This document shows, in pieces, positions 3,142 through 17,126 of a stretch of DNA of 20,754 bases. The notes below the pieces were generated by a model, which searched no databases, was not told the DNA's origin, and saw only the letters and a list, made by a program, of their open reading frames with translations. This DNA is from Sphingomonadaceae bacterium. Lineage in GTDB: Bacteria > Pseudomonadota > Alphaproteobacteria > Sphingomonadales > Sphingomonadaceae. The position numbers and the translations under genes were made by a program. Every line of letters starts with the position of its first letter. The stretch's first letter is position 1. The stretch is from assembly GCA_019245455.1 (NCBI GenBank), contig JAFARM010000143.1:1-20754 (forward strand), in the 5' to 3' direction.

Positions 3142-5139
3142 TCAGTCGCGATACGTCGCCACTGCGTCGCCGAGTGCGTCCTTCAGCGGCTCGAGGTGCG
3201 TCTCGAACTTGCGCCATTGGTCGAGGCCGTCGGTGAAGATCGGGCGGCGGACCTGCTCTCTGCACGGCGTGCGGACGCTGCGGGGGTTCTCGTGGAAAGT
3301 CAGGCACTTCGCCTCGAACGGCAGCCCGCAGTGGTCGAGGATGCGGCGGACCTGCCCGTCGAGATCGGCGACGACGTCTTCGTGGATCACGCGCAGCACG
3401 CGGCCGGGAAGCACGCGGTCCCAGTGGCGCATGACGTCGAGATAGGTGCGGTAGTAGCGGGCGATGGCGTCGATCGAGTAGGTGAACTCCTGCCCCTGCG
3501 CGAACAACTGCTTCAAGTTGCTGAAGCAGCACGCCATCGGCTCGCGCCGCGCGTCGATGATGACGGCATTCGGCAGGATCAGGTGGATGAGGGCGATGTG
3601 GCGGAAGTTGTTCGGCATCTTGTCGACGAAGCGCGGCTTGTCCGAGCGGTAGGCGGCAGTGTCGGCGAGGTACTGCGCCCCGAGTGCGGCGGCGTCCGCC
3701 GCCGTCAGGTCGGCGAGCGTCGCCGGATAGCGGCCGCCGTCGCCCTGCAGTTTCAGCGCGATGCGCTGGATGTCGGCGAGTTCCTGCGTGCCCTCGACGG
3801 CGGAATGCGAAGCCAGGATCTGCTCGATCAGCGTCGATCCCGAGCGCGGCAGGCCGACGACGAAGATCGGATCGCGCCGTGGTTCCCCCCAGCCGCGGCG
3901 GCGGTCGAAGAAGGCCGGCGTGCAGAGCGAAACGTGCGCCGCCGTGAGTTTTTCCGTGACCTCCGGCCGGATGCGGCTGGTCACGGCGCGCCGATGGTTG
4001 CCCTCCGCGTAGTGCGCCCACGCCGCGTCGGCGTCGCCGCGGTCCTCGAACGCCTTGCCGAGCGCGAAGTGGAGGTGGACGCGGTCGTCGCCGGCGGTAT
4101 CCGCCACCGCCGCCGTCATCCGCTCGATCGCCGCGTCGTCGAAGCGGTAGGTCTTGAGGTTGGCGAGGCTCCACCACGCATCGCCGAAGCCCGGCCGCAG
4201 GTCGGCGGCGGCGCGGTAGGCGACGACCGCCTCGTCCGTCCGCCCGACCGTCTTCAGCGCGTGGCCGAGCCACAGCTGCACGTCGCTCCGTCCGGGATCG
4301 TCGGCGGCGAGGCCGCGGTACAGCGCGATCGCCGCCTCGCTGTCGCCGACGCCGACCGCCGCCGTCGCCGCCATCTGCCGGTACGCGGCGCTTCCCGGAT
4401 CGACCGCGCGCAGCCGTTCGATCTCGGCCGCCGCAGCGCCGTACTTGTGGCGCAGGATCAGGCACTGGGCATAGTCGGCGCGCGCCGCGTGATGGTCCGG
4501 CAGCAGCGCGACGACGGCGGCGAGCAGCACCTCGGCGTCGTCGAGCACGTCGCGCGCCATGCCGATCTTGGCCAGCAGGCGCATCGCCTCGGGATCGTCG
4601 CCGTGGCGCTGCAGCACGCCGCGGACGATCGCCTCGGCCGGCACCAGGTCGCCGTCGGCGAACAGGCCGGTCGCCGTCACCACCTCCGGCCGCAGCGCGG
4701 CGAGCGCGGCGACGTGCGCCTCGGCGGTCGCGGCATTGGCGGCGTCGCCGGTCATCCGGTACAGGCCGGCGAGCATCCGCCACGCCATCGGCAGCGCCGG
4801 GTTGCGGTTGACGGCGCGGAGCAGCGCGTCGATCGCCGCCGGCGCATTCTTGCGGACGACGTGCGCCAGCCCGCGCTCCTGCCACATCAGGCTGAAGTCG
4901 GGATGCGCCGCGGCCAGCGCGTCGAGCGTCGCCAGCGCGTCCGCCGTCCGCCCCGCCAGCCGCTCGCTCGCCGCCTTGAGGAGGAGGAGGTCGCGGTTCT
5001 CCGGCACGTGCGCCAGCCGCGCCGTCGCTCCGGCGATGACCGCGGCGTGGTCGCCCGCCGCCTGCGCCCGGCGCAGCGCGACGACGACCGCCTGCGTGTC
5101 GGGCGCGGCAGGCAGGTCGTGGATCGGGTCGGTCGCCAT
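3142..5139 (-). CDS. TPR-repeat sulfotransferase
   Basis: A 665-residue protein with no signal peptide seen. Residues about 20-400 are TPR-like helical repeats (for example 267-315, with DVQLWLGHALKTVGR at 286-300). Residues 424-655 form a sulfotransferase domain. The PAPS 5'-phosphosulfate loop is PIFVVGLPRSGSTLIEQ (424-440), DKMPNNFRHI lies at 506-515, and the 3'-phosphate segment RREPMACCFSNLKQLF at 531-546. Expected chemistry is sulfuryl transfer from PAPS to an unknown acceptor, possibly a protein gripped by the TPRs. It starts 61 bp after the TonB receptor stop on the same strand, so the two are probably co-transcribed. ATG 5137-5139 is the only good in-frame start after an in-frame TAA; AGGCGAGGC precedes it. 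A perfect AAGGAGG lies farther upstream (5180-5186), out of useful range. Acceptor not predictable. Confidence 0.85.
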   Translation of the reverse strand: MATDPIHDLPAAPDTQAVVVALRRAQAAGDHAAVIAGATARLAHVPENRDLLLLKAASERLAGRTADALATLDALAAAHPDFSLMWQERGLAHVVRKNAPAAIDALLRAVNRNPALPMAWRMLAGLYRMTGDAANAATAEAHVAALAALRPEVVTATGLFADGDLVPAEAIVRGVLQRHGDDPEAMRLLAKIGMARDVLDDAEVLLAAVVALLPDHHAARADYAQCLILRHKYGAAAAEIERLRAVDPGSAAYRQMAATAAVGVGDSEAAIALYRGLAADDPGRSDVQLWLGHALKTVGRTDEAVVAYRAAADLRPGFGDAWWSLANLKTYRFDDAAIERMTAAVADTAGDDRVHLHFALGKAFEDRGDADAAWAHYAEGNHRRAVTSRIRPEVTEKLTAAHVSLCTPAFFDRRRGWGEPRRDPIFVVGLPRSGSTLIEQILASHSAVEGTQELADIQRIALKLQGDGGRYPATLADLTAADAAALGAQYLADTAAYRSDKPRFVDKMPNNFRHIALIHLILPNAVIIDARREPMACCFSNLKQLFAQGQEFTYSIDAIARYYRTYLDVMRHWDRVLPGRVLRVIHEDVVADLDGQVRRILDHCGLPFEAKCLTFHENPRSVRTPCREQVRRPIFTDGLDQWRKFETHLEPLKDALGDAVATYRD

Positions 5140-5200: not shown

Positions 5201-7882
5201 CTAGAAGTCATAGCCGGCGCGGATGCCGAACACGCGCGGCCGGATCGGGATTTCCTCGCGGATGAACTCGGCCGACGTGGTGAAGGTCGACGCGTGGCTG
5301 TTGTTGAGGTTGGTGACATACGCCTGCGCGTTCCACCCGGCGCGCGCCGAAACGCCGATCGACGCGTCAATCGTGCCATAGCCGGGCTGGCGGTAGCGGA
5401 GGAAGGTCGTCGTCGGCAGGATCACGCCCTCGCCCGACAGATAGGTCGCCGGCTGGTTGTACTGCGCGCTGATGTACTGGCCGCCGATCTGGGCGAAGGG
5501 GCGATAGTCGCCGATCTCCCAGTCGTAGCGGACGCGCGCCGTGCCTTCGAAGTGCGGCGAGAAGGCGGAGACCGAGCCGGCGATGCCGAACGGGTTCTGG
5601 AACGGCGCGCCGCGCACCTCGGTGATGCACTGGCCGAAGGTCGGCGAGGCCGGGATGTTGCTGCGCAGGCACGGCGAGTTGGTCTGCCGGTTGTCGTTGT
5701 ACGTCGCCGTGCCGGTGAAGGTCAGCCCGCGCACCGGCCGCGCCGTCACCTGCACCTCCGCCCCCTTGATGTTGTAGTCGGGGCCGTTGACGCCGAACGT
5801 CGTGTTGCCGAGCTGCGTCGGGTTGTAGAACAGGAACTGAACGTTCTGCCAGTCCATGTTGTACAGGGTGACGTTGAGCTGCAGCTTCTTGTCGAACAGC
5901 GAAGTCTTGAGCCCGATCTCGTAATTGTTGAGGCTGTCGGGGGCATAGCTGTTCGGTGTCAGATACTGCGGATTGCCGTTGGCGTCGCGCGCCACCGCGC
6001 GCTGCGACCGGCTGAAGCCGCCGGGGCGGAACCCCTGCGAGAAGGTGAAGTAGGCGAGCGTCGTCGGCGTCACCTTCCAGTTGACCGAGGCGCGGCTGCG
6101 GAAGCCCTGGTAGGTGACATGGTCGTTGTGCGGCCCGATGTCGAAGGTGCCGCCGAGCGGCCCGCACTGGCCATTGGGCACGTTCAGACAGGCGACGCCG
6201 GTCGAGTACTGCGCCCCGACCTCATACTCGCGGTAGTTGTAGTAGCGCGTGCCGCCCGTGATCGTCAGCACGTTGGGGATGATGTCGACGTCGACCGAGC
6301 CGAAGGCGGCGAACTGGGTATAGCCGCGCTTGACGTCCTCGCCGAAGCCGGTGTTGTCGTCGCGCGTGCCGGGTTCGTTGACATCGGCCCCGGCGATCGT
6401 CCGCGTGTTGGCGACGCACGGCTGCCCGCCGGCGAGCGCGGTGGCGAGGTTGGCCGGGTTGCACGACGGGATCGTCTTATATTCGAAGTTCATGATGTCG
6501 TAGACGCGGAAGATTTCCTGGAACACGCCGCCGATCGCGCGGATGCGCCACGTCGACGGCGTGCTCAGCCGCACCTCGTTCGTCACGTGGATGTTGCGGA
6601 CGCGGTCGTGCCAGTAGGTCGCCGGCGAGAAGCAGACCGCCGGGCCGCGGCCGAAGCCGGTGGTGCCGCCGGTGCACTGGTAGTACTGGCCGTAGGCGGT
6701 GCGCGAATAGTTGGTGTAGTCGACCTGGTTGTCGATGTGGCGGTCGAGATAGCTGCCGGTGTAGACCGCCGACAGCGGCCCGATCTTGCCGTGGACGGTC
6801 CACGACGTCGCCGAGAAGCGGTCGTGGTCGAAGCTGGGCACGAACGACGTCACCTGCAGCGGCTGCAGCGGCTGGAAATCGGAGCCGATCGGATATTGCG
6901 CCGACAGGCCGCCGACATCCAGCTGCTGGTACGTCTCGCTGATCAGCACGTCCCAGTTGGGCGCGATATCCCACAGGGCGGAAACGCGGCCGCCGCGATA
7001 GTCGACCGGGTTGAAGTCGTTGTGGGCGATGGCGCCGTTGTTGATCTGGTGCTGATCGGCGAAGGTGCAGAAGCCGGGCGAGGTCGGCGCCTGCGGCTGG
7101 CCGTTCGGGCACAGCCCGTTCGCCAGCGGGCGGATGTTCAGGTAATAATTGCCGAGATCGGCGTTCGACCGGGTGAAGGTCGAATAGACGTTGTCGATAT
7201 AGCCGCCGCGGTGTTCGTTGTAGAAGGTCGCGCGGATCGCGAGCTTGTCCTTCAGGATCGGGACGTTGAGCGTCAGTTCCTCGCGGTTGTTCGACGAACC
7301 GCCTGACGTGCCGCCGTACAGCGCCTCGGCATGGCCGCCGAAGGCGCTGAGGTTCGGCTTGTTGGTGATGTAGCGCACCGCCCCCGCCTCGGCACCGCCG
7401 CCGAACAGCGTGCCCTGCGGCCCCTCGAGCACCTCAATGCGTTCGAGGTCGACGGCCAGGATGTCGATGTTGCGCGCCGGGAACTGCAGCGACTGGTCGT
7501 CGAGGTAGATGGCGACGTTGGGGAAGTTGCCGATCGTCGCCGACGACTGGCCGCCGGCGAAGCCCGCGCTCAATCCGCGGATGAAGATCGACCCCTGGCC
7601 CGGGCCGTTGTTGCCGAAGGTGATGTTGGGCACGTACTTGACGAGATCGTCGAAGGTCGTGACCTGGAGCTGCTTCAGCGTCTCGCCGGTGAACGCCTGG
7701 ATGGTCAGCGGCACGTTCTGGATGTTCTCGCTGCGGCGCTGGGCGGTGACGGTGATCTCGCCGATGCCGGTGTCGGCCCCGCCCGCGCTCTCGGCGGCGG
7801 CGGGTTCGGGCGCGGCGGCGGCGAGGGCGGGGCCGCAGACGAGCGCCGCGGCGGCGCACGAGATCAGATAGGCGGCTTTCAT
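5201..7882 (-). CDS. TonB-dependent outer-membrane receptor
   Basis: An 893-residue protein. The signal peptide MKAAYLISCAAAALVCGPAL is followed by AAAAPEP. A TonB-box-like GEITVTAQR lies at 41-49. The plug domain includes NVPLTIQAFTGETLKQL, ERIEVLEGPQGTLFGGG and AVRYITNKP, and a long 22-strand-type barrel ends in GIRAGYDF with the C-terminal Phe of outer-membrane proteins. Five cysteine pairs separated by 8-20 residues occur in presumed loops. The start is ATG 7880-7882, with GGGGGAT before it and a clear signal peptide; an upstream TTG would spoil the signal peptide. The leader carries the palindrome at 7964-7978, identical to the one before the aminophosphonate operon, and a small hairpin at 7935-7953. 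From the shared site I infer uptake of an aminophosphonate or a conjugate; sequence alone gives no substrate. The sulfotransferase gene follows. Confidence 0.93.
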   Translation of the reverse strand: MKAAYLISCAAAALVCGPALAAAAPEPAAAESAGGADTGIGEITVTAQRRSENIQNVPLTIQAFTGETLKQLQVTTFDDLVKYVPNITFGNNGPGQGSIFIRGLSAGFAGGQSSATIGNFPNVAIYLDDQSLQFPARNIDILAVDLERIEVLEGPQGTLFGGGAEAGAVRYITNKPNLSAFGGHAEALYGGTSGGSSNNREELTLNVPILKDKLAIRATFYNEHRGGYIDNVYSTFTRSNADLGNYYLNIRPLANGLCPNGQPQAPTSPGFCTFADQHQINNGAIAHNDFNPVDYRGGRVSALWDIAPNWDVLISETYQQLDVGGLSAQYPIGSDFQPLQPLQVTSFVPSFDHDRFSATSWTVHGKIGPLSAVYTGSYLDRHIDNQVDYTNYSRTAYGQYYQCTGGTTGFGRGPAVCFSPATYWHDRVRNIHVTNEVRLSTPSTWRIRAIGGVFQEIFRVYDIMNFEYKTIPSCNPANLATALAGGQPCVANTRTIAGADVNEPGTRDDNTGFGEDVKRGYTQFAAFGSVDVDIIPNVLTITGGTRYYNYREYEVGAQYSTGVACLNVPNGQCGPLGGTFDIGPHNDHVTYQGFRSRASVNWKVTPTTLAYFTFSQGFRPGGFSRSQRAVARDANGNPQYLTPNSYAPDSLNNYEIGLKTSLFDKKLQLNVTLYNMDWQNVQFLFYNPTQLGNTTFGVNGPDYNIKGAEVQVTARPVRGLTFTGTATYNDNRQTNSPCLRSNIPASPTFGQCITEVRGAPFQNPFGIAGSVSAFSPHFEGTARVRYDWEIGDYRPFAQIGGQYISAQYNQPATYLSGEGVILPTTTFLRYRQPGYGTIDASIGVSARAGWNAQAYVTNLNNSHASTFTTSAEFIREEIPIRPRVFGIRAGYDF

Positions 7883-7963
7883 GGTCGCATCCCCCGATGG
7901 CTCCTGGCGACGGGTTACGGGCGGACGGGCGGACGGGGCCAAGTCTTTGCCCCAATGCCGGGC

Positions 7964-7978
7964 ATAGGCGCGGCCTAT
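7964..7978. promoter_or_regulatory. Candidate LysR-type operator in front of the TonB receptor
   Basis: Interrupted palindrome ATAGGC-GCG-GCCTAT; with flanking C7963 and G7979 the arms are 7 bp. It is identical to 9467-9481. T7965 and A7977 give the T-N11-A spacing of LysR boxes. It ends 81 nt upstream of the receptor ATG. Read toward the gene, similarity continues for another 9 bases (GCC-GG-CATT against GCC-GC-CATT, with two differences). Function is inferred. Confidence 0.65.
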
Positions 7979-7993
7979 GGCGACGGCGCGCCG

Positions 7994-8011
7994 CTGTCAC
8001 ACGGCGGTCAC
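7994..8011 (-). promoter_or_regulatory. GTGAC-N6-GTGAC direct repeat, Pho-box-like (complement)
   Basis: On the minus strand it reads GTGACCG-CCGT-GTGACAG, 15 bp upstream of the palindrome and between the receptor gene and the HD-domain gene stop at 8020. The plus strand reads CTGTCAC-ACGG-CGGTCAC, close to the Pho-box layout of 7-bp repeats separated by 4 bp. The same arrangement recurs at 9449-9466. The orientation is opposite to that usual for PhoB activation of the receptor, so the identity of the binding protein is open. Confidence 0.4.
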
Positions 8012-8019
8012 GGTCGTTG

Positions 8020-8547
8020 TTAACGAAGCGTAAGCGCCTGCAGCATCGGCAGAAAGTCGGCGAAGGCGGCTGCCGGGGGGCCGTCGGCCTTCCCCGCGTC
8101 GTCGTAGCGGCGCAGGCGGATCGCCGCCGCCGCGTCGGGCAGGCGGGCGAAGGCAGCGGCGGCGGTGGCGTCGAACGCCCCGCCCTGCCGCACCAGCGAC
8201 CGCTGCGACTCGGCACTGAGCGCGGCCGCGTACGCCAGATCGACCGCGCATAGCCAGCGCTTGGCCGCGACGTGGAGCGCGACCGGCCGCCACACCGACG
8301 CGCCGAAGCACCGTGCCAGCGCCCGCGCGCCGACCGCCTCGTGCGCGCCCCCGCCGTCGCTGCCGCCGTGGCCGGCGATCAGGTGGCCGAGGTCGTGGAG
8401 CAGCGCCGCGGCGATCATCGCCGGCGGCTCGCCGGCGTCGCGCGCCAGCGTCGCGCACTGGACGGCGTGCTCGGCCTGGCTGACGCCTTCGCCATAGGTC
8501 TCGTGCCCGCGCGCGGCGAACAGCGCGGCGATGCCGGCGAGCGTCAC
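8020..8547 (-). CDS. HD-domain phosphonate-degradation protein, PhnZ-like oxygenase
   Basis: A 175-residue protein of the HD subgroup found in phosphonate operons, which includes PhnZ, a mixed-valent di-iron oxygenase that cleaves (R)-2-amino-1-hydroxyethylphosphonate to glycine and phosphate. Candidate ligands are all present: H27 (SQAEH), H51-D52 (ALLHDLGH), H69 (AHEAVGA), H92 (ALHVAAKRW) and D149 (RRYDDAGK). H55, K96 and E20 also fit, and as I recall the PhnZ spacing is very similar. The start is GTG 8545-8547, overlapping the LysR stop as GTGA, which implies translational coupling; a longer frame to 8700 lies wholly inside lysR and is rejected. Alternatives are an ordinary HD phosphohydrolase or an oxygenase for another substituted phosphonate. 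PhnY, which makes the hydroxylated substrate, is not in the window. Confidence 0.82.
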   Translation of the reverse strand: MTLAGIAALFAARGHETYGEGVSQAEHAVQCATLARDAGEPPAMIAAALLHDLGHLIAGHGGSDGGGAHEAVGARALARCFGASVWRPVALHVAAKRWLCAVDLAYAAALSAESQRSLVRQGGAFDATAAAAFARLPDAAAAIRLRRYDDAGKADGPPAAAFADFLPMLQALTLR

Positions 8548-9434
8548 GCCGCCCCGCGGACCTCGGCGACGACCCCCTTCAACGCTCGCATCATCGCGCT
8601 CCGCCGCCGTTCGTGCTGGCACAGCAGGAACCCGTGGAGGGCATAGGTCAAGGCCCCGGTGTCGAGCGGGCGATAGGCGATGCGCGGGTCGGGCGGACAT
8701 TCGGACGAATAGAAGACGCTGATGCCGACGCCGCGCGCGATCGCCTCGCGGATCGTCTCGCGGCCTTGGATCTCGAGGATCGCGCCGGGCGTGACGCGCG
8801 CGTCGGCGAGCGCGCGCTCGGTGAAGGCGCGCGTCTTCGACGTCGGCTCGCGCAGCAGCAGGACCTCGCCCGCCAGTGCGGCGACCGGCACGGCGTTGTC
8901 GGCCGCGAGCGGGTGCGCCGCCGGCAGGGCGCAGGCGAGCCGATCGCTGAACGCGGGGTCGTAGCTGAAGCCGGTGTCGCCCGGCGGGTCGCTGGCGAGC
9001 GCGGCGTCGATCTCCGCCTCGGCCAGCCAGCGCATGACCTCGGCGGCGTTGCCCATCCGCACCTGGACCGCGGTCAGCGGGTGGCGGCGGTGGAACAGGT
9101 CGACCACCTGCGCCGCATAATAAGGCGAGTCGGAGCCGAGGCGGAGCATCCCCGCCGCTTCCGTCGATTCGCCGAGCATGGCGTCGATGTCCGAGGCGGC
9201 GGCGAACAGGCGTTGGGTCAGCGCAAACAGGTCCCGCCCCGCCGCCGACAGCTGCAGCGGCGACCGCCGCCCTTCGAACAGCGACACGCCGTGACGCGCC
9301 TCGAGCGCCTTCAGCTGCTGCGACAGCGTCGGCTGCGAGACGTTGAGCCGCCGCGCCGCGCGCGACACGCCGCGCTCGACGGCGATGGCGTGGAAGGCAC
9401 GCAGATGCTGATAGCTGGCGGGCACGAGGATCAA
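8544..9434 (-). CDS. LysR-type regulator of aminophosphonate catabolism
   Basis: A 296-residue protein. The N-terminal winged helix-turn-helix (about residues 8-66) contains LRAFHAIAVERGVSRAARRL and NVSQPTLSQQLKALEARHGV; the rest is a LysR substrate-binding domain, ending at about 280. It resembles the LysR group tied to aminoethylphosphonate catabolism, and the neighbouring genes agree. The start is TTG 9432-9434; GTG 9423-9425 is an alternative, both with weak ribosome sites. It is divergent from the FAD oxidoreductase gene; the 126-bp gap between them contains the palindrome at 9467-9481 and the direct repeat at 9449-9466. Both sit just in front of this gene, so autoregulation is likely. 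The effector might be an aminophosphonate or phosphonoacetaldehyde (inference). Confidence 0.88.
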   Translation of the reverse strand: MILVPASYQHLRAFHAIAVERGVSRAARRLNVSQPTLSQQLKALEARHGVSLFEGRRSPLQLSAAGRDLFALTQRLFAAASDIDAMLGESTEAAGMLRLGSDSPYYAAQVVDLFHRRHPLTAVQVRMGNAAEVMRWLAEAEIDAALASDPPGDTGFSYDPAFSDRLACALPAAHPLAADNAVPVAALAGEVLLLREPTSKTRAFTERALADARVTPGAILEIQGRETIREAIARGVGISVFYSSECPPDPRIAYRPLDTGALTYALHGFLLCQHERRRSAMMRALKGVVAEVRGAA

Positions 9435-9448
9435 CTTAGACCGGCTGC

Positions 9449-9466
9449 GTGACGGCCCTGTGACCG
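9449..9466 (+). promoter_or_regulatory. GTGAC-N6-GTGAC direct repeat in the divergent promoter
   Basis: Reads GTGACGG-CCCT-GTGACCG, directly abutting the palindrome at 9467. The complement, CGGTCAC-AGGG-CCGTCAC, faces lysR and resembles a degenerate Pho box. It has the same layout and the same orientation relative to the downstream FAD gene as the copy at 7994-8011 has to the receptor gene. Confidence 0.42.
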
Positions 9467-9481
9467 ATAGGCGCGGCCTAT
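9467..9481. promoter_or_regulatory. Candidate LysR-type operator of the phosphonate operon
   Basis: ATAGGC-GCG-GCCTAT, identical to 7964-7978, with T9468 and A9480 in T-N11-A spacing. It lies 32 nt before the lysR start and 79 nt before the GTG of the FAD oxidoreductase, a classic position for a LysR regulator controlling itself and a divergent operon. An ATG at 9480-9482 falls partly inside the site and is therefore unlikely to be the oxidoreductase start. Confidence 0.7.
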
Positions 9482-9560
9482 GCCGGCCATTCGCGCACCT
9501 GCCCTTGCGCCGCCGCCGCCGCCCGCGTCAGGAAGGCTGCGGGGCGGATGCGGGGGCGGC

Positions 9561-10685
9561 GTGGAGGAATACGATCTGGCGGTCGTCGGCGCGGGCATCG
9601 TCGGCCTGGCGCACGCGCTCGCCGCGCGCCGGCTCGGCTGGCGGACGGTCGTCGTCGACCGCGACGCGCAGGCCAACGGCGCGTCGGTCCGCAACTTCGG
9701 CTTCGTCACCGTCACGGGGCAGGAGGCGGGAACCGTCTGGGCGCGGGCGAAGCGGTCGCGCGACGTCTGGGCCGAGGTCGCCGGGCCGGCGGGGATCGCG
9801 ATCCACCAGACCGGCCTGACGCTCGTCGCGCGGCGGGCGGAGGCGGCCGACGTGCTGCACGCCTTCCTCGCCACCGACATGGGGGCCGAGTGCCGCTGGC
9901 TCGACCGCGCTGCCGCCGCCGCGCACCTGTCGCCGCTCGCCCCCGCCGCGCTCGAAGGCGCGCTGGTCAGCCCGCACGAGCTGCGCGTCGAATCGCGCGA
10001 CGCGGTGCCGGCCCTCGCCCGCTGGCTGGCGGCGCAGGGCGTTGCCTTCCGCTACAACACCGCCGTCCGCGGCGTCGAGCCGGGGCGGCTGGACACCACG
10101 GACGGGCCGGTCCGCGCGCGGCACATCGTCATCGCCCCCGGCGACGATCTGGCGACGCTGTATCCCGAAGCGATGACCGGCGTCACGCGGTGCAAGCTGC
10201 AGATGCTGCGCCTTGCCGACCCCGGCTGCCGCCTGCCGGCGACGCTGATGACCGACCTCAGCCTCGTCCGCTATCTCGGTTACGCCGCGCTGCCGCAGGC
10301 GGCGGCACTGCGCGCGCGGCTCGAGGCCGAACAGCCGGCCCATCTCGCCCACGGCATCCACCTGATCGTCGCGCAGGGGGCGGACGGCAGCCTGATCGTC
10401 GGCGACAGTCACCACTACGCCGCCACGCCGGACCCGTTCGCGTCCGCCGCCGTCGAGGCGCTGATCCTGGACGAGTTCGCGCACCTTTTCGGCCGCGTGC
10501 CGCCGGTCGTCGAGCGGTGGACGGGGACCTATGCGTCGGCCGCCGGGCACAGCCGGGTCATGGCCCCGGCCGACGGCGTGCGGCTGGTCGTCGTCACCAG
10601 CGGCACGGGGGCGTCGACCGCCTTCGCACTCGCCGAGGAGGTGGTCGGCGACCTGGCGGGGGTGACAATCGGGGAGGCGGCATGA
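9561..10685 (+). CDS. FAD-dependent aminophosphonate oxidoreductase (phosphonate-operon DAO family)
   Basis: A 374-residue flavoprotein. The dinucleotide-binding GAGIVG lies at 10-15 with the ribose-binding acid at D33, followed by ASVRNFGFVTVTGQ (41-54), a signature of the DAO-family enzymes found next to phosphonatases. The C-terminal FAD segment WTGTYASAAGHSRVMAP precedes VVTSGTGASTAFALAEEV. Enzymes of this type oxidise N-methyl-aminoethylphosphonate, and some also 2-aminoethylphosphonate, to phosphonoacetaldehyde, so they can stand in for PhnW. PhnX follows with an ATGA overlap, fitting that product. I chose GTG 9561-9563 because GGGGGCGGC precedes it and family homology starts there; the in-frame ATG at 9480 would add a low-complexity proline-rich tail and overlap the operator. 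Exact substrate is unknown; glycine-oxidase-like activity is the alternative. Confidence 0.87.
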   Translation: MEEYDLAVVGAGIVGLAHALAARRLGWRTVVVDRDAQANGASVRNFGFVTVTGQEAGTVWARAKRSRDVWAEVAGPAGIAIHQTGLTLVARRAEAADVLHAFLATDMGAECRWLDRAAAAAHLSPLAPAALEGALVSPHELRVESRDAVPALARWLAAQGVAFRYNTAVRGVEPGRLDTTDGPVRARHIVIAPGDDLATLYPEAMTGVTRCKLQMLRLADPGCRLPATLMTDLSLVRYLGYAALPQAAALRARLEAEQPAHLAHGIHLIVAQGADGSLIVGDSHHYAATPDPFASAAVEALILDEFAHLFGRVPPVVERWTGTYASAAGHSRVMAPADGVRLVVVTSGTGASTAFALAEEVVGDLAGVTIGEAA

Positions 10686-11482
10686 TCCGGGCGGTGGTGT
10701 TCGACTGGGCGGGAACGATGATCGACTTCGGCAGCCGCGCGCCGGTGGTGGCGCTGCTGCGGCTGTTCAAGGCCAACGGCTTGCCGATCACCGAGGCAGA
10801 GGCGCGGGCCGACATGGGCCGGGCCAAGCGCGATCATATCGCCGCCCTGCTCGCCGCCCCGCGCATCGCCGCGGCGTGGCAAGCGGCGCACGGGTCCGCC
10901 CCGACGGCGGCCGACGGCGACCGGCTGCACGACGCCATCCTGCCCGAGATGCAGGCGGCGGCGCGGGACTGCGCGACGCTGATCCCGGGTGCCGCCGACC
11001 TCGTCCGCCGGCTGCGCGCACAGGGCGTCGGCATCGGCTCGTCGACCGGCTATACGCGGGCGATGATGGCCGACATCCTGCCCGCGGCCGCGGCGCAGGG
11101 CTACGCTCCCGACGTCGTCGTCTGCGCCGGCGACACGCGCGAGGGGCGGCCGTCGCCGCTGATGCTGTGGCGGAACCTGGTCGAGCTCGGCGCGTGGCCG
11201 GCGTCGGCGTGCGTCAAGGTCGACGACGCCGCCGTCGGCATCGCCGAAGGGCGCGGCGGGGGCACGTGGACGGTCGGCGTGACGGCGTCGGGCAACGGCG
11301 TCGGCCTGGCCGAGGACGCGCTCGCCGCCCTGCCCCCGGCCGAGCGCAGCGCGCGCATCGCCGCCGCCGGCGCGCCGCTGCTCGAGGCCGGCGCGCACTA
11401 TCTGGTCGAGACGGTCGCCGCGCTCGATCCGGTGCTCGCCGAAATCGCCGCGCGCATCGCCGCCGGCGACCGGCCGGGGTGA
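10682..11482 (+). CDS. phnX: Phosphonoacetaldehyde hydrolase (phosphonatase)
   Basis: A 266-residue HAD-superfamily enzyme that hydrolyses phosphonoacetaldehyde to acetaldehyde and phosphate. The nucleophile is D8 in VVFDWAGTMID. The cap-domain Schiff-base lysine is K49 in DMGRAKRDHI, with M45 and H52 also conserved as in the Bacillus enzyme. SSTGYTRAMM is the second HAD motif and VKVDDAAVGIAEG the acidic metal-binding segment, in the DD form that I recall from Pseudomonas PhnX. Length is normal. ATG 10682-10684 overlaps the FAD oxidoreductase stop (ATGA) and its own TGA overlaps the GTG of the next gene (GTGA), so the three are surely one operon. It receives the aldehyde made by its neighbour. 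Confidence 0.96.
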   Translation: MIRAVVFDWAGTMIDFGSRAPVVALLRLFKANGLPITEAEARADMGRAKRDHIAALLAAPRIAAAWQAAHGSAPTAADGDRLHDAILPEMQAAARDCATLIPGAADLVRRLRAQGVGIGSSTGYTRAMMADILPAAAAQGYAPDVVVCAGDTREGRPSPLMLWRNLVELGAWPASACVKVDDAAVGIAEGRGGGTWTVGVTASGNGVGLAEDALAALPPAERSARIAAAGAPLLEAGAHYLVETVAALDPVLAEIAARIAAGDRPG

Positions 11483-12759
11483 CGGACAGCCGCGTCACGG
11501 CGTGGCTGCGCCGCGCGCCGCCGGCGGCGTTCGCGCTGTACGGCGGTACGGCGGCGTTCGCGACCTATTTCGCCATGTACGCCTACCGGAAGCCGTTCGC
11601 GGCGGCGGCGTACGACCATGTCGCCGGCTGGCCGTTCGCGCTGCCGTTCAAGGTCGCGCTGGTCATCGCCCAGGTCGCCGGCTACGCGCTGGCCAAGGCG
11701 ATCGGCATCAAGGTCGTGTCGGAACTGGCCCCGTCGCGGCGGGCGGGGGCGATCGTCCTGCTGATCGCGCTGAGCGAGGTCGCGCTCGTCGTCTTTGCGC
11801 TCGCGCCAGCCGGCGTTGGCGTCGCCGCGCTGTTCGCCAATGGCCTGGCGCTCGGCATGATCTGGGGGCTGGTGTTCGGCTTCCTCGAGGGGCGGCGGCT
11901 GACCGAGGTGCTCGGCGCGATCCTGTGCGCGAGCTTCATCGTCAGCTCGGGCGCGGTCAAGGCGGCCGGCGCGGCGCTGCTCCTCGGCGGCTGGGCGGGC
12001 GAGCGGTGGATGCCGGCCGCCACCGGCGCGCTGTTCGCGCCGCTGCTCGTCGCCGCCGTCGCCGCGCTGGCGCAGCTGCCGCCGCCCGATGCCGCCGACG
12101 AGGCGGCGCGGACGGTGCGCGTGCCGATGGACGCCGCCGCCCGCGCGCGCTTCTTCCGCGCCTATGCCGGCGGCCTCGTGCCGCTAATCCTGTGTTATGT
12201 CCTGCTGTCCGCGTTCCGCGACTTCCGCGACAATTTCGCCGCCGAGATCTGGCGCGAACTCGGCTTCGCGGGCGAGGCGGCGATCTTCGCCTGGTCGGAG
12301 CTGCCGGTCGCGGCGATCGTGCTGGCGGCGATGGCGACATTGGTCCGGGTGCGCGACAACGCCCGCGCGCTGTTCTGGAACCTGGCCATGGTCGCGGCCG
12401 GGCTGGTCGTCATGGCGGCGGCGACGTCGGCGTTCCATGCCGGCGCGATGGGGCCTTTGGCGTGGATGGTGACGGTGGGGGCCGGGCTGTACCTCGCCTA
12501 TGTCCCGTTCAATGCCTTGCTGTTCGACCGGCTGATCGCCGCCAGCGGCGCGGCGGGGACGGCGGGGTTCCTGATCTACGTCGCCGACACCGCGGGCTAT
12601 GGCGGCAGCGTCGCCCTGCTGCTGCTGCGCAGCTTCGCGCATCTCGACCTGCGCTTCGCCGCGCTGCTTGGGCGTGTCGCCTATCTGACCGCGGCGGTCG
12701 GGCTGGCCGCGGTCGCGGTCGCCGCGGTGGCGCTGCGCCGCCGCCTGCGGGCGCGATAA
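11479..12759 (+). CDS. DUF5690-type MFS membrane protein, candidate phosphonate carrier
   Basis: A 426-residue protein, strongly hydrophobic, with about 12 spans. It matches the uncharacterised DUF5690 family as I remember it (YGGTAAFATYFAMYAYRKPF at 21-40; LRDFRDN-like segment at 246-252). The layout recalls organophosphate:phosphate antiporters: MYAYRKPF aligns by eye with YYLVRKNF of GlpT, placing R37 at the phosphate-binding R45, and R247 in YVLLSAFRDF with GlpT R269. NGLALGMIWG (121-130) also resembles the GlpT GWFQGMGW segment. GTG 11479-11481 overlaps the phnX stop, so translation is coupled to the catabolic genes. Uptake of an aminophosphonate in exchange for phosphate is my inference; the family has no function known to me. 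Confidence 0.85.
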   Translation: MTDSRVTAWLRRAPPAAFALYGGTAAFATYFAMYAYRKPFAAAAYDHVAGWPFALPFKVALVIAQVAGYALAKAIGIKVVSELAPSRRAGAIVLLIALSEVALVVFALAPAGVGVAALFANGLALGMIWGLVFGFLEGRRLTEVLGAILCASFIVSSGAVKAAGAALLLGGWAGERWMPAATGALFAPLLVAAVAALAQLPPPDAADEAARTVRVPMDAAARARFFRAYAGGLVPLILCYVLLSAFRDFRDNFAAEIWRELGFAGEAAIFAWSELPVAAIVLAAMATLVRVRDNARALFWNLAMVAAGLVVMAAATSAFHAGAMGPLAWMVTVGAGLYLAYVPFNALLFDRLIAASGAAGTAGFLIYVADTAGYGGSVALLLLRSFAHLDLRFAALLGRVAYLTAAVGLAAVAVAAVALRRRLRAR

Positions 12760-12820
12760 GGCCGGTTGCCGTCGACGGGCGGAGCGACGATCATCGCGCC
12801 GCAGGAAACCGGGAGGGCGC

Positions 12821-14116
12821 GTGACCGTCGAGACCAGGCCGCGGCTGTCCGCGGCGCGCATCGTGTCGATGAATATCGGCTTCCTGGGGCTGCAGTTCAG
12901 CTTCGGCCTGCAGCAGAGCAATATCGGGCCGATCTACCGCTACCTTGGGGCCGACGAGGCGACGCTGCCGCTGCTGTGGCTCGCCGGCCCGATCACCGGC
13001 CTTCTCGTCCAGCCGCTGATCGGCGCGCTGAGCGACCGCACGGTGTCGCGGCTGGGGCGGCGGACGCCGTATTTCCTGATCGGAGCGATCCTGTGCAGCG
13101 CCAGCCTGTTCGCCATGCCGTACAGCCGCGCGCTGTGGGTGGCGGCGTCGCTGCTGTGGATCCTCGATGCCGCCAACAACATCACGCAGGAACCCTATCG
13201 CGCCTATGTCAGCGACCGGCTGGTGCCGGCGCAGCGGCCGTTCGGCTTCCTGACGCAGGCGGCCTTCACCGGCCTGGCGCAGACGCTGTCGTACCTCGCC
13301 CCGTCGCTGCTCGTCTGGGCGGGGATGAACGCCGACGCGGTCGATGCCAACGGCATCCCGCAGGTGACGCGCATCGCCTTCCTAGCGGGATCGGCGATTT
13401 CGCTGACGACGATCCTGTGGTCGGTCGCGACGGTCCCCGAGCTGCCGCCGACGCCGGCCGAGCGCGCGGCGATGGCGGCCGAGCCGCTGTCGGCGCGCCA
13501 GGCGTGGCGCGACTTCGCCGCCGCCGTCGCCGCCATGCCGTCGCCGATGCGGCGGCTGGCGCTCGCCATGCTGTGCCAGTGGTATGCGATGTTCGCGTAC
13601 TGGCAGTTCATCGCGCTCGCCGTCGCACGGTCGCTGTTCCACACCGCCGACCCGGCGACGCCGGCGTTCCGCGGCGCGGTGCTCGTTGCCGGGCAGATCG
13701 GCGGCGTCTACAACGCCGTCGCCTTCGTCGCCGCCTTCATGATGGTGCCGCTGGCGCGGCGCTTCGGCGCCAAGGCGTGCCACGCCGCGTGCCTGGTCGC
13801 CGCCGGCGCGGCGATGCTCGCCATTCCCGCCTGCCGCAGCGAGGCGACCCTCCTGCTGCCGATGGTCGGCGTCGGGCTCGGCTGGGCTAGCCTGATGGGC
13901 AACCCGTACATCATGCTCGCCGACGCCATCCCGCCGGCGCGGACGGGCATCTACATGGGCATCTTCAATATGTTCATCGTCGTGCCGATGCTGATCGAAA
14001 GCCTGACGATGCCGCTTCTCTACCCGTTGCTCGGCAGCGATCCGCGCGCCGTCGTCGCGCTCGCCGGCGGTCTCATGCTGGCCGCGGCGGCGGCGACGCT
14101 CCGGGTGCGGGGCTGA
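12821..14116 (+). CDS. SLC45 / sucrose-maltose type MFS transporter
   Basis: A 431-residue inner-membrane carrier with about 12 spans. Family marks are MNIGFLGLQFSFGLQQSNIG (17-36), LWLAGPITGLLVQPLIG (52-68), the loop motif SDRTVSRLGRRTPY (71-84), and AANNITQEPYRAYVSD in the fourth-span region. These match bacterial SLC45-like proton symporters for disaccharides and related glycosides. It begins at GTG 12821-12823 after GGGAGGGCGC, 61 bp after the DUF5690 gene, so it may be the last gene of the operon or have its own promoter; no copy of the palindrome lies before it. Substrate is unknown. In this setting it could import the compound delivered by the TonB receptor, such as a sugar-linked phosphonate. 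Confidence 0.85.
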   Translation: MTVETRPRLSAARIVSMNIGFLGLQFSFGLQQSNIGPIYRYLGADEATLPLLWLAGPITGLLVQPLIGALSDRTVSRLGRRTPYFLIGAILCSASLFAMPYSRALWVAASLLWILDAANNITQEPYRAYVSDRLVPAQRPFGFLTQAAFTGLAQTLSYLAPSLLVWAGMNADAVDANGIPQVTRIAFLAGSAISLTTILWSVATVPELPPTPAERAAMAAEPLSARQAWRDFAAAVAAMPSPMRRLALAMLCQWYAMFAYWQFIALAVARSLFHTADPATPAFRGAVLVAGQIGGVYNAVAFVAAFMMVPLARRFGAKACHAACLVAAGAAMLAIPACRSEATLLLPMVGVGLGWASLMGNPYIMLADAIPPARTGIYMGIFNMFIVVPMLIESLTMPLLYPLLGSDPRAVVALAGGLMLAAAAATLRVRG

Positions 14117-14216
14117 ACGGCGAGGCACCCCAAGCGGTGACGACGTGGGGCACGCCGGCGATGACAGCCTGACCCGTCGATCCCGCGTTATCGCTGTCCA
14201 GCGCGCCTGACGCTTC

Positions 14217-15209
14217 CTACTGCGCGGCGCGCGGCGCTCGCTCCGGCCGTCCGTCGGCGGCCACGCCGCCCTCGCCGCGCGCCTGCCGCCGCGCGACCTC
14301 GGCGGCGGTCTGCGGCTTGACGAACACCGCCGTCACCTCCGGATGGTCGGCGCGGATGCGGTCCTCGAGCGCAACGACCGCCTCTTCGATCCTCGGCGCG
14401 GTCAGCGCGTCGGCGAACTCGACCGACAGGTTCGCCACCACCTGGTCGGGGGCGAGCTGCACCGTCGCCACGGCGTTGACCGCGTCGATGCCGTCGACCG
14501 CGCCGCCAATGGCGCAGATCGCTTGCGTCAGCGCCGGATCGGCCCGCTCCCCGATCAGCAGCGCCTTCGATTCGCGGGCGAGGATCAGCGCGACGGCGGC
14601 GAGGATGGCGGCGATGAGGACGCTCGCCGCCCCGTCCCATCGCGTATCGCCGGTGGCGAGCGCCAGCGCCGTCCCCGCCGCCGCCACCGCGAGCCCGGCG
14701 AGCGCCGCCGAATCCTCGAACACGACCATGAACGTCGGCGGGTCCTTCGACTGGCGGAAAGCGTCCCAGAAGCCGCGGCCGCCGGCCTGGGCGCGGAACT
14801 CGCGGACGCCGACGATCCACGAGATACCCTCGAACACCGCCGATACACCCAGCACGATGAAGACGGTCTTGGGCGATTCGATCGGCTTGGGATGCGCGAG
14901 GTGCTGCCACCCCTCGTACGCCGAGACGCCGGCACCGAGGGCGAAGATCAGCAGCGCGACGACGAAGCTCCAGAAGTACAGCTCACGGCCATAGCCGAGC
15001 GGGTGGGTCGCGTCCGGCGGCCGCTTGGCGCGGTGCTGGCCGTAGAGCAGCAGCACCTCGTTGGTCGTGTCGACTAGGCTGTGGACGCCCTCCGACAGCA
15101 TCGCCGCCGACCCCGACACCGCGGCGGCGAAGAACTTGACCGCGGCGATGGCGAGGTTGCCCGCCAGCGCCACCCAGACGACGACCTGCGATCCCGACTT
15201 CTCCGCCAT
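14217..15209 (-). CDS. Cation diffusion facilitator (CDF) metal transporter
   Basis: A 330-residue protein with about six spans (residues 9-205) and a cytosolic C-terminal domain (215-305). CDF proteins export divalent metals such as zinc in exchange for protons. TM2 carries SEGVHSLVDT (39-48) with H43 and D47 as metal ligands; HPLGYGRELYFW (69-80) follows. The TM5 site reads FEDSAAL (164-170), with E165/D166 instead of the common HxxxD, as in the ZnT9/SLC30A9-like branch. The C-terminal ~30 residues are low complexity (Arg, Gly, Ala). It starts at ATG 15207-15209, 59 bp after the pgl-like gene on the same strand. It is convergent with the SLC45-type gene; the 100-bp gap between them holds only a weak CCCCA/TGGGG inverted repeat. 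Metal specificity is not predictable. Confidence 0.9.
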   Translation of the reverse strand: MAEKSGSQVVVWVALAGNLAIAAVKFFAAAVSGSAAMLSEGVHSLVDTTNEVLLLYGQHRAKRPPDATHPLGYGRELYFWSFVVALLIFALGAGVSAYEGWQHLAHPKPIESPKTVFIVLGVSAVFEGISWIVGVREFRAQAGGRGFWDAFRQSKDPPTFMVVFEDSAALAGLAVAAAGTALALATGDTRWDGAASVLIAAILAAVALILARESKALLIGERADPALTQAICAIGGAVDGIDAVNAVATVQLAPDQVVANLSVEFADALTAPRIEEAVVALEDRIRADHPEVTAVFVKPQTAAEVARRQARGEGGVAADGRPERAPRAAQ

Positions 15210-16013: not shown

Positions 16014-17048
16014 TCACTGCGGCCGCGCCACTGGCGGCACGCGGGGGAAGGCGATCCGCGTCGTCAGCCCGCGCGGGTGCCAGTCGCGCTCGATCCGCCC
16101 CTGGAGCTGGCGGATGACGACGGCGTCGGTCATGCCCAGGCCATAGCGCGGCACCGCCCGACGGGGGACCGGCCCGCCGCGCTCGATCATGTCAACGACG
16201 GTCTTCTCCCCGTCCGCCTGCCAGCGGATCGTCACGCGCCCCGCCGCCGTCGACAGCGCGCCGTGATCGACGGCATTGGTCAGCACCTCGTGCAGCGCCA
16301 GGATCAACGGCTGGACGTGCGCCGCCGCCACGGTCAACGCCGGCCCCTCGGCGGTCACGGGACTGCCGAAGCCCGCGGCGACCGCGGCGATGACGCGATC
16401 GATCGCCACGTCGCGCCATTCGGCGTCGGACAGGACGACGTGCGCCTGGGCCAGCGCATCGACGCGGCCCTGCACCGCGCGCGAATAGCGGTCGGGATCG
16501 TCGGCGCGCGACAGGCGGACGATGCCCTGGACGAGCGCCAGCGCGTTCTTCGCGCGATGATCGACCTCGCGCAGCAGCAGGTGCTCGCGCGCCGCCAGCC
16601 CGCGGGCGCGGCGCTCCCCGGTGACGTCGAGCTGCGAGGCGAAGAAATACTGGATCGCGCCGTCGTCGCCGATGATCGGGCTGAGCATCAGCTGGTTCCA
16701 GAAGGACGAGCCGTCGCGGCGATAGTTGAGCAGCTCGATCGTCAGGTCGCGGCAGTCGGCGATGGCCGCGCGAATGGCGTCGACGGCTTCGGGATCGGTG
16801 TCCGGACCCTGGAGAAAGCGGCAGTTGCGACCGATGACCTCGTCGGCCGCGTACCCTGTCTTGTCGAGAAACGCCTGGTTGGCAAAGACGATCGGGCAGT
16901 CGGCGCGGCGCGGGTCGGCGACCACCATCGGCATCCGCGTCCGCTGCACCGCGACCGCGGCGAGCGAGCGAAGATCGACGGCGGCCTCGGGCAGCAGGGC
17001 GGCCGGGCGGGCGTCGGGCACGGGGCGGCGGAGCGGGGTCGAAGTCAT
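16014..17048 (-). CDS. LOV-domain (blue-light) sensor histidine kinase, HWE/HisKA_2 type
   Basis: A 344-residue soluble protein. A LOV domain (about 36-142) carries the FMN-binding, photo-adduct motif GRNCRFLQG (73-81) with C76, plus NYRRDGSSFWNQL (108-120). A kinase domain follows: phospho-acceptor H164 in LREVDHRAKNALALVQ (159-174), the N-box ALHEVLTNAVDHGALS (251-266), and a G-box RYGLGM (301-306). The WxE motif of classic HWE kinases is not intact: MIERGGP (287-293) has Met where Trp is usual. Light would control autophosphorylation; no response regulator lies nearby, so the partner (for example a PhyR-type general stress path) is elsewhere. I chose ATG 17046-17048; a TTG at 17075 would add nine residues. 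A 6-bp-arm hairpin covers the ribosome-binding region. It follows cfa by 78 bp. Confidence 0.9.
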   Translation of the reverse strand: MTSTPLRRPVPDARPAALLPEAAVDLRSLAAVAVQRTRMPMVVADPRRADCPIVFANQAFLDKTGYAADEVIGRNCRFLQGPDTDPEAVDAIRAAIADCRDLTIELLNYRRDGSSFWNQLMLSPIIGDDGAIQYFFASQLDVTGERRARGLAAREHLLLREVDHRAKNALALVQGIVRLSRADDPDRYSRAVQGRVDALAQAHVVLSDAEWRDVAIDRVIAAVAAGFGSPVTAEGPALTVAAAHVQPLILALHEVLTNAVDHGALSTAAGRVTIRWQADGEKTVVDMIERGGPVPRRAVPRYGLGMTDAVVIRQLQGRIERDWHPRGLTTRIAFPRVPPVARPQ

Positions 17049-17053
17049 GGCAA

Positions 17054-17070
17054 TCCGGGGCTTACCCGGA
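17054..17070 (-). promoter_or_regulatory. Small inverted repeat over the LOV-kinase ribosome-binding region
   Basis: TCCGGG-TAAGC-CCCGGA on the minus strand, 6-bp arms and 5-nt loop, lying 6 to 22 nt before the ATG at 17048. In RNA it would form a stable short hairpin over the place where a Shine-Dalgarno should be. If TTG 17075 were the true start, the repeat would be coding. Confidence 0.35.
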
Positions 17071-17126
17071 CACAACGCTGCGGCCGTCGCTCGGGTGCAT
17101 CGGTCGCGCGCGCGATCGACAGTCCC

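Follow-up and report, generated by a model that had tools for sequence, protein, structure and literature searches.

The subject of this work is a stretch of 20,754 nucleotides from contig JAFARM010000143.1 of a Sphingomonadaceae bacterium (referred to as the window, at its full length), in which two identical copies of a palindromic sequence precede, respectively, a gene for a TonB-dependent outer-membrane receptor and a phosphonate catabolic operon, which begins with a gene for a flavin adenine dinucleotide (FAD)-dependent oxidoreductase. Based on the comparisons with related genomes presented below, it is very likely that one operator, recognized by a LysR-type regulator encoded between the two, co-regulates the receptor and the catabolism of phosphonates, and it is rather probable that the receptor transports a phosphonate. 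The sequence elements in question are as follows.

7964..7978, minus strand: palindromic operator core, putative LysR-type, upstream of the TonB receptor gene
9467..9481, plus strand: palindromic operator core, putative LysR-type, between lysR and the FAD-oxidoreductase gene, with CAT at 9488-9490
7938..7978, minus strand: full 41-bp operator/-35-like module of the receptor promoter, 0 mismatches

The core of this element is 15 bp long (ATAGGC-GCG-GCCTAT), with two arms of 6 bp, a spacer of 3 bp and T-N11-A geometry, and it is located 81 nt from the ATG of the receptor gene and 79 nt from the GTG of the FAD-oxidoreductase gene. The original prediction, which was made from the sequence of the window alone, had described copies of a palindrome with these arms and this geometry at 7964 and 9467, with no other perfect copy in the window, and had given the same two distances and placed the second copy between lysR and the catabolic genes; our measurements on the 15-bp core bear out each of these points. 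Further, these two copies are also the only exact places for the pattern ATAGGC-N3-GCCTAT in the assembly to which the window belongs (2.65 Mb, 95.2% complete), in which the reversed control pattern gave 0, and the expectation from base composition is 0.0004 copies for the window and 0.046 for the assembly. There are 20 palindromes in the window with 6-bp arms and a 3-bp spacer. Two arms recur among them, ATAGGC and CGGCGA, the latter being GC-rich, and none (0) of 300 first-order Markov simulations of the window produced a recurring arm that had 3 or more A/T. The regulatory sites of LysR proteins are imperfect palindromes with T-N11-A geometry, found in the divergent promoter beside the regulator gene, and the copy at 9467-9481 has this form and, lying between lysR and the FAD gene, also this location. 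However, the exact palindrome on its own is present in 6 of 39 genomes of other relatives versus 4 of 40 for the reversed control, and at the six bare-palindrome sites checked, out of seven in these 6 relatives (one of the two sites in G029 lying outside the check), the 41-bp module is absent even when 4 mismatches are allowed. The bare palindrome is near background among the relatives; the signal is carried by the pairing and by the extended module.

The related loci consist of 11 that were obtained by scanning genomes of named species with the window LysR (from Polymorphobacter, Sphingomonas, Caulobacter, Woodsholea and metagenome-assembled genomes (MAGs)), together with G005 and G688 from a search of the family and G146 from a search of the order, and their genes were mapped by tblastn with the window proteins. 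In the 17 sites that were aligned, the palindrome forms the first part of a sequence of 41 bp with fixed spacing, whose consensus is ATAGGC-N3-GCCTAT-N6-CAT-N6-AAAG-N-CTTGGC, some copies having AATG or AAAC. The promoters were picked by the palindrome and aligned on it, and the downstream columns had no part in this selection; averaged over 15 columns at a time, the information content amounts to 1.30, 0.78 and 1.01 across the module versus 0.15-0.34 in the flanks. In the receptor promoter of the window, the sequence from the palindrome arm onward reads GCCTAT-GCCCGG-CAT-TGGGGC-AAAG-A-CTTGGC. The resemblance that had been noted to continue in the direction of each gene, over 6 nt and a following CAT, is real, and on the receptor side it extends further than had been stated; what had been overlooked was the CAT..CAAAG-N-CTTGGC half, along with the Pho-box-like repeat, the apparent single operons of receptor, FAD gene and phnX, and the Caulobacter receptor subfamily, which are all described below. 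The CTTGGC sequence starts 21 bp past the end of the palindrome, whose centre lies about 31 bp upstream of the CTTGGC centre, and if CTTGGC is taken to be the -35 box, then the palindrome centre falls near -64. LysR regulators hold their recognition site near -65, and the module appears to be laid out like a LysR activator site, with the CAT..CAAAG half as the putative activation site.

Co-regulation is supported by the conservation of this module at particular genes. Scanning of 19 loci revealed 18 sites with up to 2 mismatches, distributed over 13 loci, and all 18 are directly upstream of either a TonB receptor gene (11 sites) or an FAD gene (7 sites), at 55-160 nt from the extrapolated start of that gene; no such site was found in L047, L139, L165, L166, L008 and L009. 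The FAD operator of the window is a nineteenth site, beyond these 18. In this analysis, L010 was replaced by the longer L102 from the same genome, and the genome of L038, which is the same as G001/G215, was counted once in the 13 loci. Two copies, one for each gene, are present in 6 genomes (the window, L038, L039, L046, L048 and G005), and in one of these (L039, Sphingomonas PAMC 26605) the gene order is rearranged and a copy is retained before each gene. A weaker palindrome-like second copy with 3 mismatches is seen near the lysR start in L043 and in L044 (at 9966-9980 in both), and these two were excluded from the information-content and Pho-box counts.

The module also tracks the LysR protein. 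In 15 genomes that were chosen for having a relative of the window LysR, all 16 sites with up to 2 mismatches, found in 12 of the genomes, are at the phosphonate (phn) locus, and 14 sites with exactly 3 mismatches are elsewhere (no site is present in G192; the reversed control gave 1). Among 298 genomes of the family, the module (up to 1 mismatch) is present in 3 and the LysR (E<=1e-70) in 4, the 3 being included within the 4. In 385 genomes of the class, a module with up to 2 mismatches is found in 24 versus 18 for the reversed control, which indicates that 2 mismatches represent background at that scale, and the only exact match is in the genome of the window itself. Additionally, the sequence QPTLSQQLKALE, which we take to be the recognition helix of the LysR, is identical in all 13 of the LysRs from module loci and altered in the 4 compared that lack a good module. 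The change is limited to a single conservative residue in G688, whose site has 4 mismatches, and is larger in the three that have no site at the locus, L047, G188 and G192. The latter two genomes served as negative controls; their distant LysRs (35% and 32% identical to that of the window) have the best TIGR03339 scores in the order sample and no module, although G188 has a 3-mismatch match about 9.5 kb from its LysR. An order-wide search with TIGR03339 was itself non-discriminating, with 195 of 196 genomes matching and 0 over the cut-off. Of the outcomes that were named in the original prediction as refuting it, neither of the two that are open to computation was seen: in its 41-bp form the element is not frequent genome-wide (in the 15 LysR genomes and the 298 family genomes), and it is retained in relatives at the same two gene types (in the 19 loci scanned). 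The proposal of a single LysR acting on the receptor as well as on the catabolic operon is supported by the module conservation and by the tracking of the close LysR and its predicted recognition helix.

The receptors in these loci are of different kinds. Receptors resembling that of the window (type A, 56-83% identity) are present in the phn locus of L038, L039, L045, L046, L048 and G005, and in G688 the genes for a type A receptor (54%) and a tetratricopeptide repeat (TPR)-sulfotransferase are oriented divergently to lysR, with the FAD and phnX genes 12 kb away. The Caulobacter loci L040-L043 have a receptor of type B, to which the window receptor as query gave no match at 1e-5, between the operator and the FAD gene, about 89-117 nt before the latter, and in 4 Caulobacter strains and 1 Caulobacteraceae MAG the receptor and FAD genes seem to form one operon behind one operator. 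L047 and G146 have yet another receptor type in the locus, with about 30% identity between the two over part of the sequence, and in L044, from a Caulobacter MAG, no receptor lies between the operator and the FAD gene and one is present about 5 kb beyond lysR.

In most of these promoters a second element adjoins the palindrome. A Pho box is defined as two 7-bp direct repeats of the CTGTCAT type with a 4-bp spacer (PMC4415409, as given in part of that source), and two repeats of this construction are present in the window.

7994..8011, plus strand: Pho-box-like repeat CTGTCAC-N4-CGGTCAC, 1 mismatch
9449..9466, minus strand: Pho-box-like repeat CGGTCAC-N4-CCGTCAC, 2 mismatches

Upstream of the palindrome, a repeat with a period of 11 bp (TGAC-N7-TGAC) is found in 12 of 17 sites versus 19 of 8500 random stretches, and CTGTCAY-N4-CTGTCAY (up to 3 mismatches) in 15 of 20 sites versus 65 of 6000, these counts being less independent than they look due to the presence of near copies among the promoters. 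Across 7 genomes the pattern (up to 1 mismatch) occurs at 24 places versus 5 for the reversed control, and in the genome of the window at 4 places, one of which is 7994-8011, versus 1. One of the two exact matches in a Polymorphobacter relative is at the receptor promoter. The TIGR02136 cut-off is reached in none of the 15 pstS-like loci, 5 of which show a box with up to 3 mismatches at a distance of about 90-125 nt ahead of the sequence that was matched (e.g. CTGTCACCGAACCGTCAT); the pstS-like gene of the window genome begins at a contig edge, and its promoter lies outside the readable sequence. The presence of these repeats suggests joint control of the promoters by PhoB and LysR. Pho-box-like repeats were also observed in L116, L105 and L115, from the same genome and relatives, before genes whose products have N-termini that by eye look like those of TonB receptors.

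Based on these results, we propose that the phn-type LysR encoded at 8544-9434 recognizes the palindromes. As a tetramer, it would contact each promoter both at the palindrome, at about -64, and at the CAT..CAAAG half beside the -35-like CTTGGC, and, when a phosphonate metabolite is present, presumably as the inducer, LysR would activate transcription of two targets, viz. the FAD oxidoreductase-phnX-DUF5690 operon and the TonB receptor with its TPR-sulfotransferase, with the upstream Pho-box-like repeat adding control by PhoB. An aminophosphonate, or a compound bearing one, would then be actively imported across the outer membrane, oxidized to phosphonoacetaldehyde and hydrolysed to phosphate. 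The fullest form of this proposal, according to which the receptor is a dedicated, energy-driven aminophosphonate importer under LysR and PhoB, differing TonB subfamilies stand behind the same operator and the operator marks a phosphonate receptor, is in our estimation evenly poised.

Several observations, however, weigh against the above interpretation. In the FAD copy of the window, the palindrome and CAT are intact but the CAAAG/CTTGGC half is degenerate, and no module is found there even at 3 mismatches. In G146 and L044 the module is present solely at the FAD gene; L047 (Woodsholea, LysR 50%) has no module although there is a TonB receptor in the locus, and in G688 (LysR 52%) the receptor has a version with 4 mismatches, the stretch that holds the FAD genes having none. 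The counts given above are also not independent, as the three family positives belong to a single genus, several of the promoters are nearly identical to one another and the window LysR served as the query for finding the loci. Each of the 15 Pho-box-like repeats at operators points in the direction opposite to the receptor or FAD gene, even where no divergent gene is visible. In addition, 7 of the 12 family genomes with a window-like receptor have no phn genes within the 9-14 kb fetched, their whole genomes lying beyond this search, and a 2023 review (PMC10574752), in the parts available, leaves TonB unmentioned and presumes entry via porins.

It is possible, although we regard it as doubtful, that the receptor belongs to a LysR/Pho regulon and is co-induced in a general response to phosphorus, its substrate being iron, a quaternary amine or a different phosphorus compound (a phosphate ester or lipid head group). 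Window-like receptors without phn genes in the fetched stretch are in keeping with this possibility, particularly that of L159, which adjoins a betaine-type ABC (ATP-binding cassette) transporter gene, as are the G688 receptor, which is beside phospholipase C-type genes (L139), and the control of several Caulobacter TonB receptors by PhoB (PMC11208175, in part). However, the receptor and the carbon-phosphorus (C-P) enzymes have in common a substrate-type LysR operator, which goes beyond a mere Pho box, and of the 7 receptors with no phn genes in the fetched stretch, 6 have no Pho-box-like repeat (up to 4 mismatches) in the 300 nt upstream. Further, in G610 (a contig of 3.85 kb) the DUF5690 and FAD genes are divergent from the receptor, with Pho-box-like repeats and no LysR match or LysR operator. 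It should be noted that type A-like receptors (E<=1e-150) occur in 12 of the 298 family genomes, 4 of these having the LysR, and given the receptors without phn genes in the fetched stretch, the subfamily as a whole is not phosphonate-specific; it is the phn-linked members that are singled out by their promoters. In a receptor tree with 17 rows, the phn-linked receptors are clustered without forming one clade (3 changes versus a shuffled mean of 5.9; 8 of 500 shuffles as low). Structural comparison was uninformative on the substrate: the best 50 matches listed in a fold search are all TonB receptors or models thereof, those to solved structures being other receptors, mostly siderophore receptors with 10-14% identity, and the model used has a mean pLDDT (predicted local distance difference test) of 61.4 with a poorly modelled plug. 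Automatic annotation names place the close relatives of the receptor under iron transport.

That the palindrome is bound by some other regulator, e.g. PhoB or a global factor, with LysR acting elsewhere, is very unlikely; a Pho-box-like repeat adjoins most of the palindrome copies and the binding of LysR to the palindrome is only predicted, but the module follows LysR and its presumed recognition helix, has no other occurrence within 2 mismatches across the 15 LysR genomes, and matches LysR sites in its geometry. Least likely of all, to the point of being hardly credible, is that the second copy reflects chance or a recent functionless duplication of a promoter, as the identity of the two window 15-mers might suggest, since the flanks of the two copies differ, 5 other genomes have, at this pair of genes, two copies that are not identical, and L039 retains a copy for each gene despite the rearrangement.

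The co-regulation proposed here can be compared with known systems, for which the statements below rest on the available parts of the papers cited. In Pseudomonas putida BIRD-1 (PMC9311074), the LysR regulator AepR and PhoBR jointly control the genes for 2-aminoethylphosphonate (AEP), and this AepR-PhnWX system is similar in having a LysR beside phosphonatase genes, with substrate induction and PhoBR control. However, the main text of that paper is without mention of TonB, a Pho box or a binding site, the authors put forward the speculation that an AepR acts on its neighbouring operon alone, and the transporters studied are the inner-membrane AepXVW and AepP. The PusCD proteins of Flavobacterium (PMC8115612) are TonB-dependent outer-membrane transporters, induced by phosphate depletion, in clusters that include phosphonate-degrading enzymes; they differ in being Bacteroidetes SusC/SusD pairs, and no LysR operator or phosphonate substrate is named in those parts. 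The PhoB-controlled TonB receptors of Caulobacter crescentus (PMC11208175) are similarly proposed to take up alternative phosphorus sources, but no phosphonate operon or LysR operator appears in the corresponding parts. In the review PMC10574752, a PbfD-type FAD enzyme is described as oxidizing AEP and N-methyl-AEP to phosphonoacetaldehyde and as possibly replacing PhnW, and the PbfB/PbfC/PbfD oxidoreductases resemble the window enzyme in being FAD enzymes that are sometimes found beside phnX alone. A phosphonate TonB receptor was not seen in the titles or abstract openings among the literature matches listed, a search outside of which most of the subscription literature lies. The earlier remark that no described receptor of this kind was known needs to be qualified by the occurrence of PusCD beside phosphonate genes. 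A LysR next to phosphonatase genes is already known, and PusCD is the nearest precedent seen for the receptor; the present comparison contributes the definition of an operator and the placement of an outer-membrane TonB receptor under this predicted operator.

Sphingomonads and Caulobacter have dozens of TonB receptors per genome, and to our knowledge few of these have a known substrate. The conserved substrate-type operator that the receptor has in common with C-P bond enzymes would tie it to phosphonate nutrition, and the 41-bp signature can be searched for in other genomes. The retention of the operator at both gene types in related bacteria suggests that phosphonate nutrients are actively pulled through the outer membrane, which would call into question the picture of entry by porins and be relevant to phosphorus cycling at low concentrations.

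The genes of the window are listed below.

3142..5139, minus strand: TPR-sulfotransferase protein, downstream of the receptor (domain scan and relatives)
5201..7882, minus strand: TonB-dependent receptor, 893 aa, Plug and beta-barrel (PF07715 and PF00593, over Pfam gathering cut-offs)
8020..8547, minus strand: Phn-HD oxygenase-like protein, overlapping lysR (TIGR03276 197.7 bits, below the cut-off of 214.6; scored on the reading frame 8020-8700)
8544..9434, minus strand: LysR regulator, aminoethylphosphonate type (TIGR03339 238.4 bits, below the cut-off of 341.1)
9561..10685, plus strand: FAD-dependent oxidoreductase (TIGR03364 397.3 bits, over the cut-off of 285.1)
10682..11482, plus strand: phosphonoacetaldehyde hydrolase PhnX (TIGR01422 324.9 bits, over the cut-off of 220)
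11482..12759, plus strand: DUF5690 protein (in 14 of 16 loci with an FAD gene, window included)
12821..14116, plus strand: MFS (major facilitator superfamily) transporter (at 1e-5, without a match in any of the 11 named-species loci)
16014-17075: blue-light (light-oxygen-voltage, LOV) histidine kinase, outside the finding (NCBIfam score over cut-off)

TIGR03339 is the best NCBIfam family for the window LysR, the runner-up having 111.2 bits, and as its cut-off is not reached, the protein is described as AepR-like and not called AepR; relatives indicate that its start is likelier to be the GTG at 9425 than the TTG at 9434. From its context with phnX, the FAD oxidoreductase is a candidate PbfD-like AEP/N-methyl-AEP oxidase, and the window proteins scanned include no aminotransferase such as PhnW, the search for phnW being confined to these. 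The DUF5690 protein, for whose name a literature search found nothing, is a candidate inner-membrane phosphonate permease. Of 16 window-like receptors, that of the window among them, 13 have a TPR-sulfotransferase gene in their stretch, whether phosphonate genes are there or not. In L040, the other side of lysR (10892-14763) carries a further TonB receptor, which has an STN domain, beside a metallophosphoesterase gene, and in L139 (15099-18425) phospholipase C-type and phosphatidylinositol-specific phospholipase C (PI-PLC)-type genes adjoin the lysR-receptor unit of G688, which suggests lipid head groups as a source.

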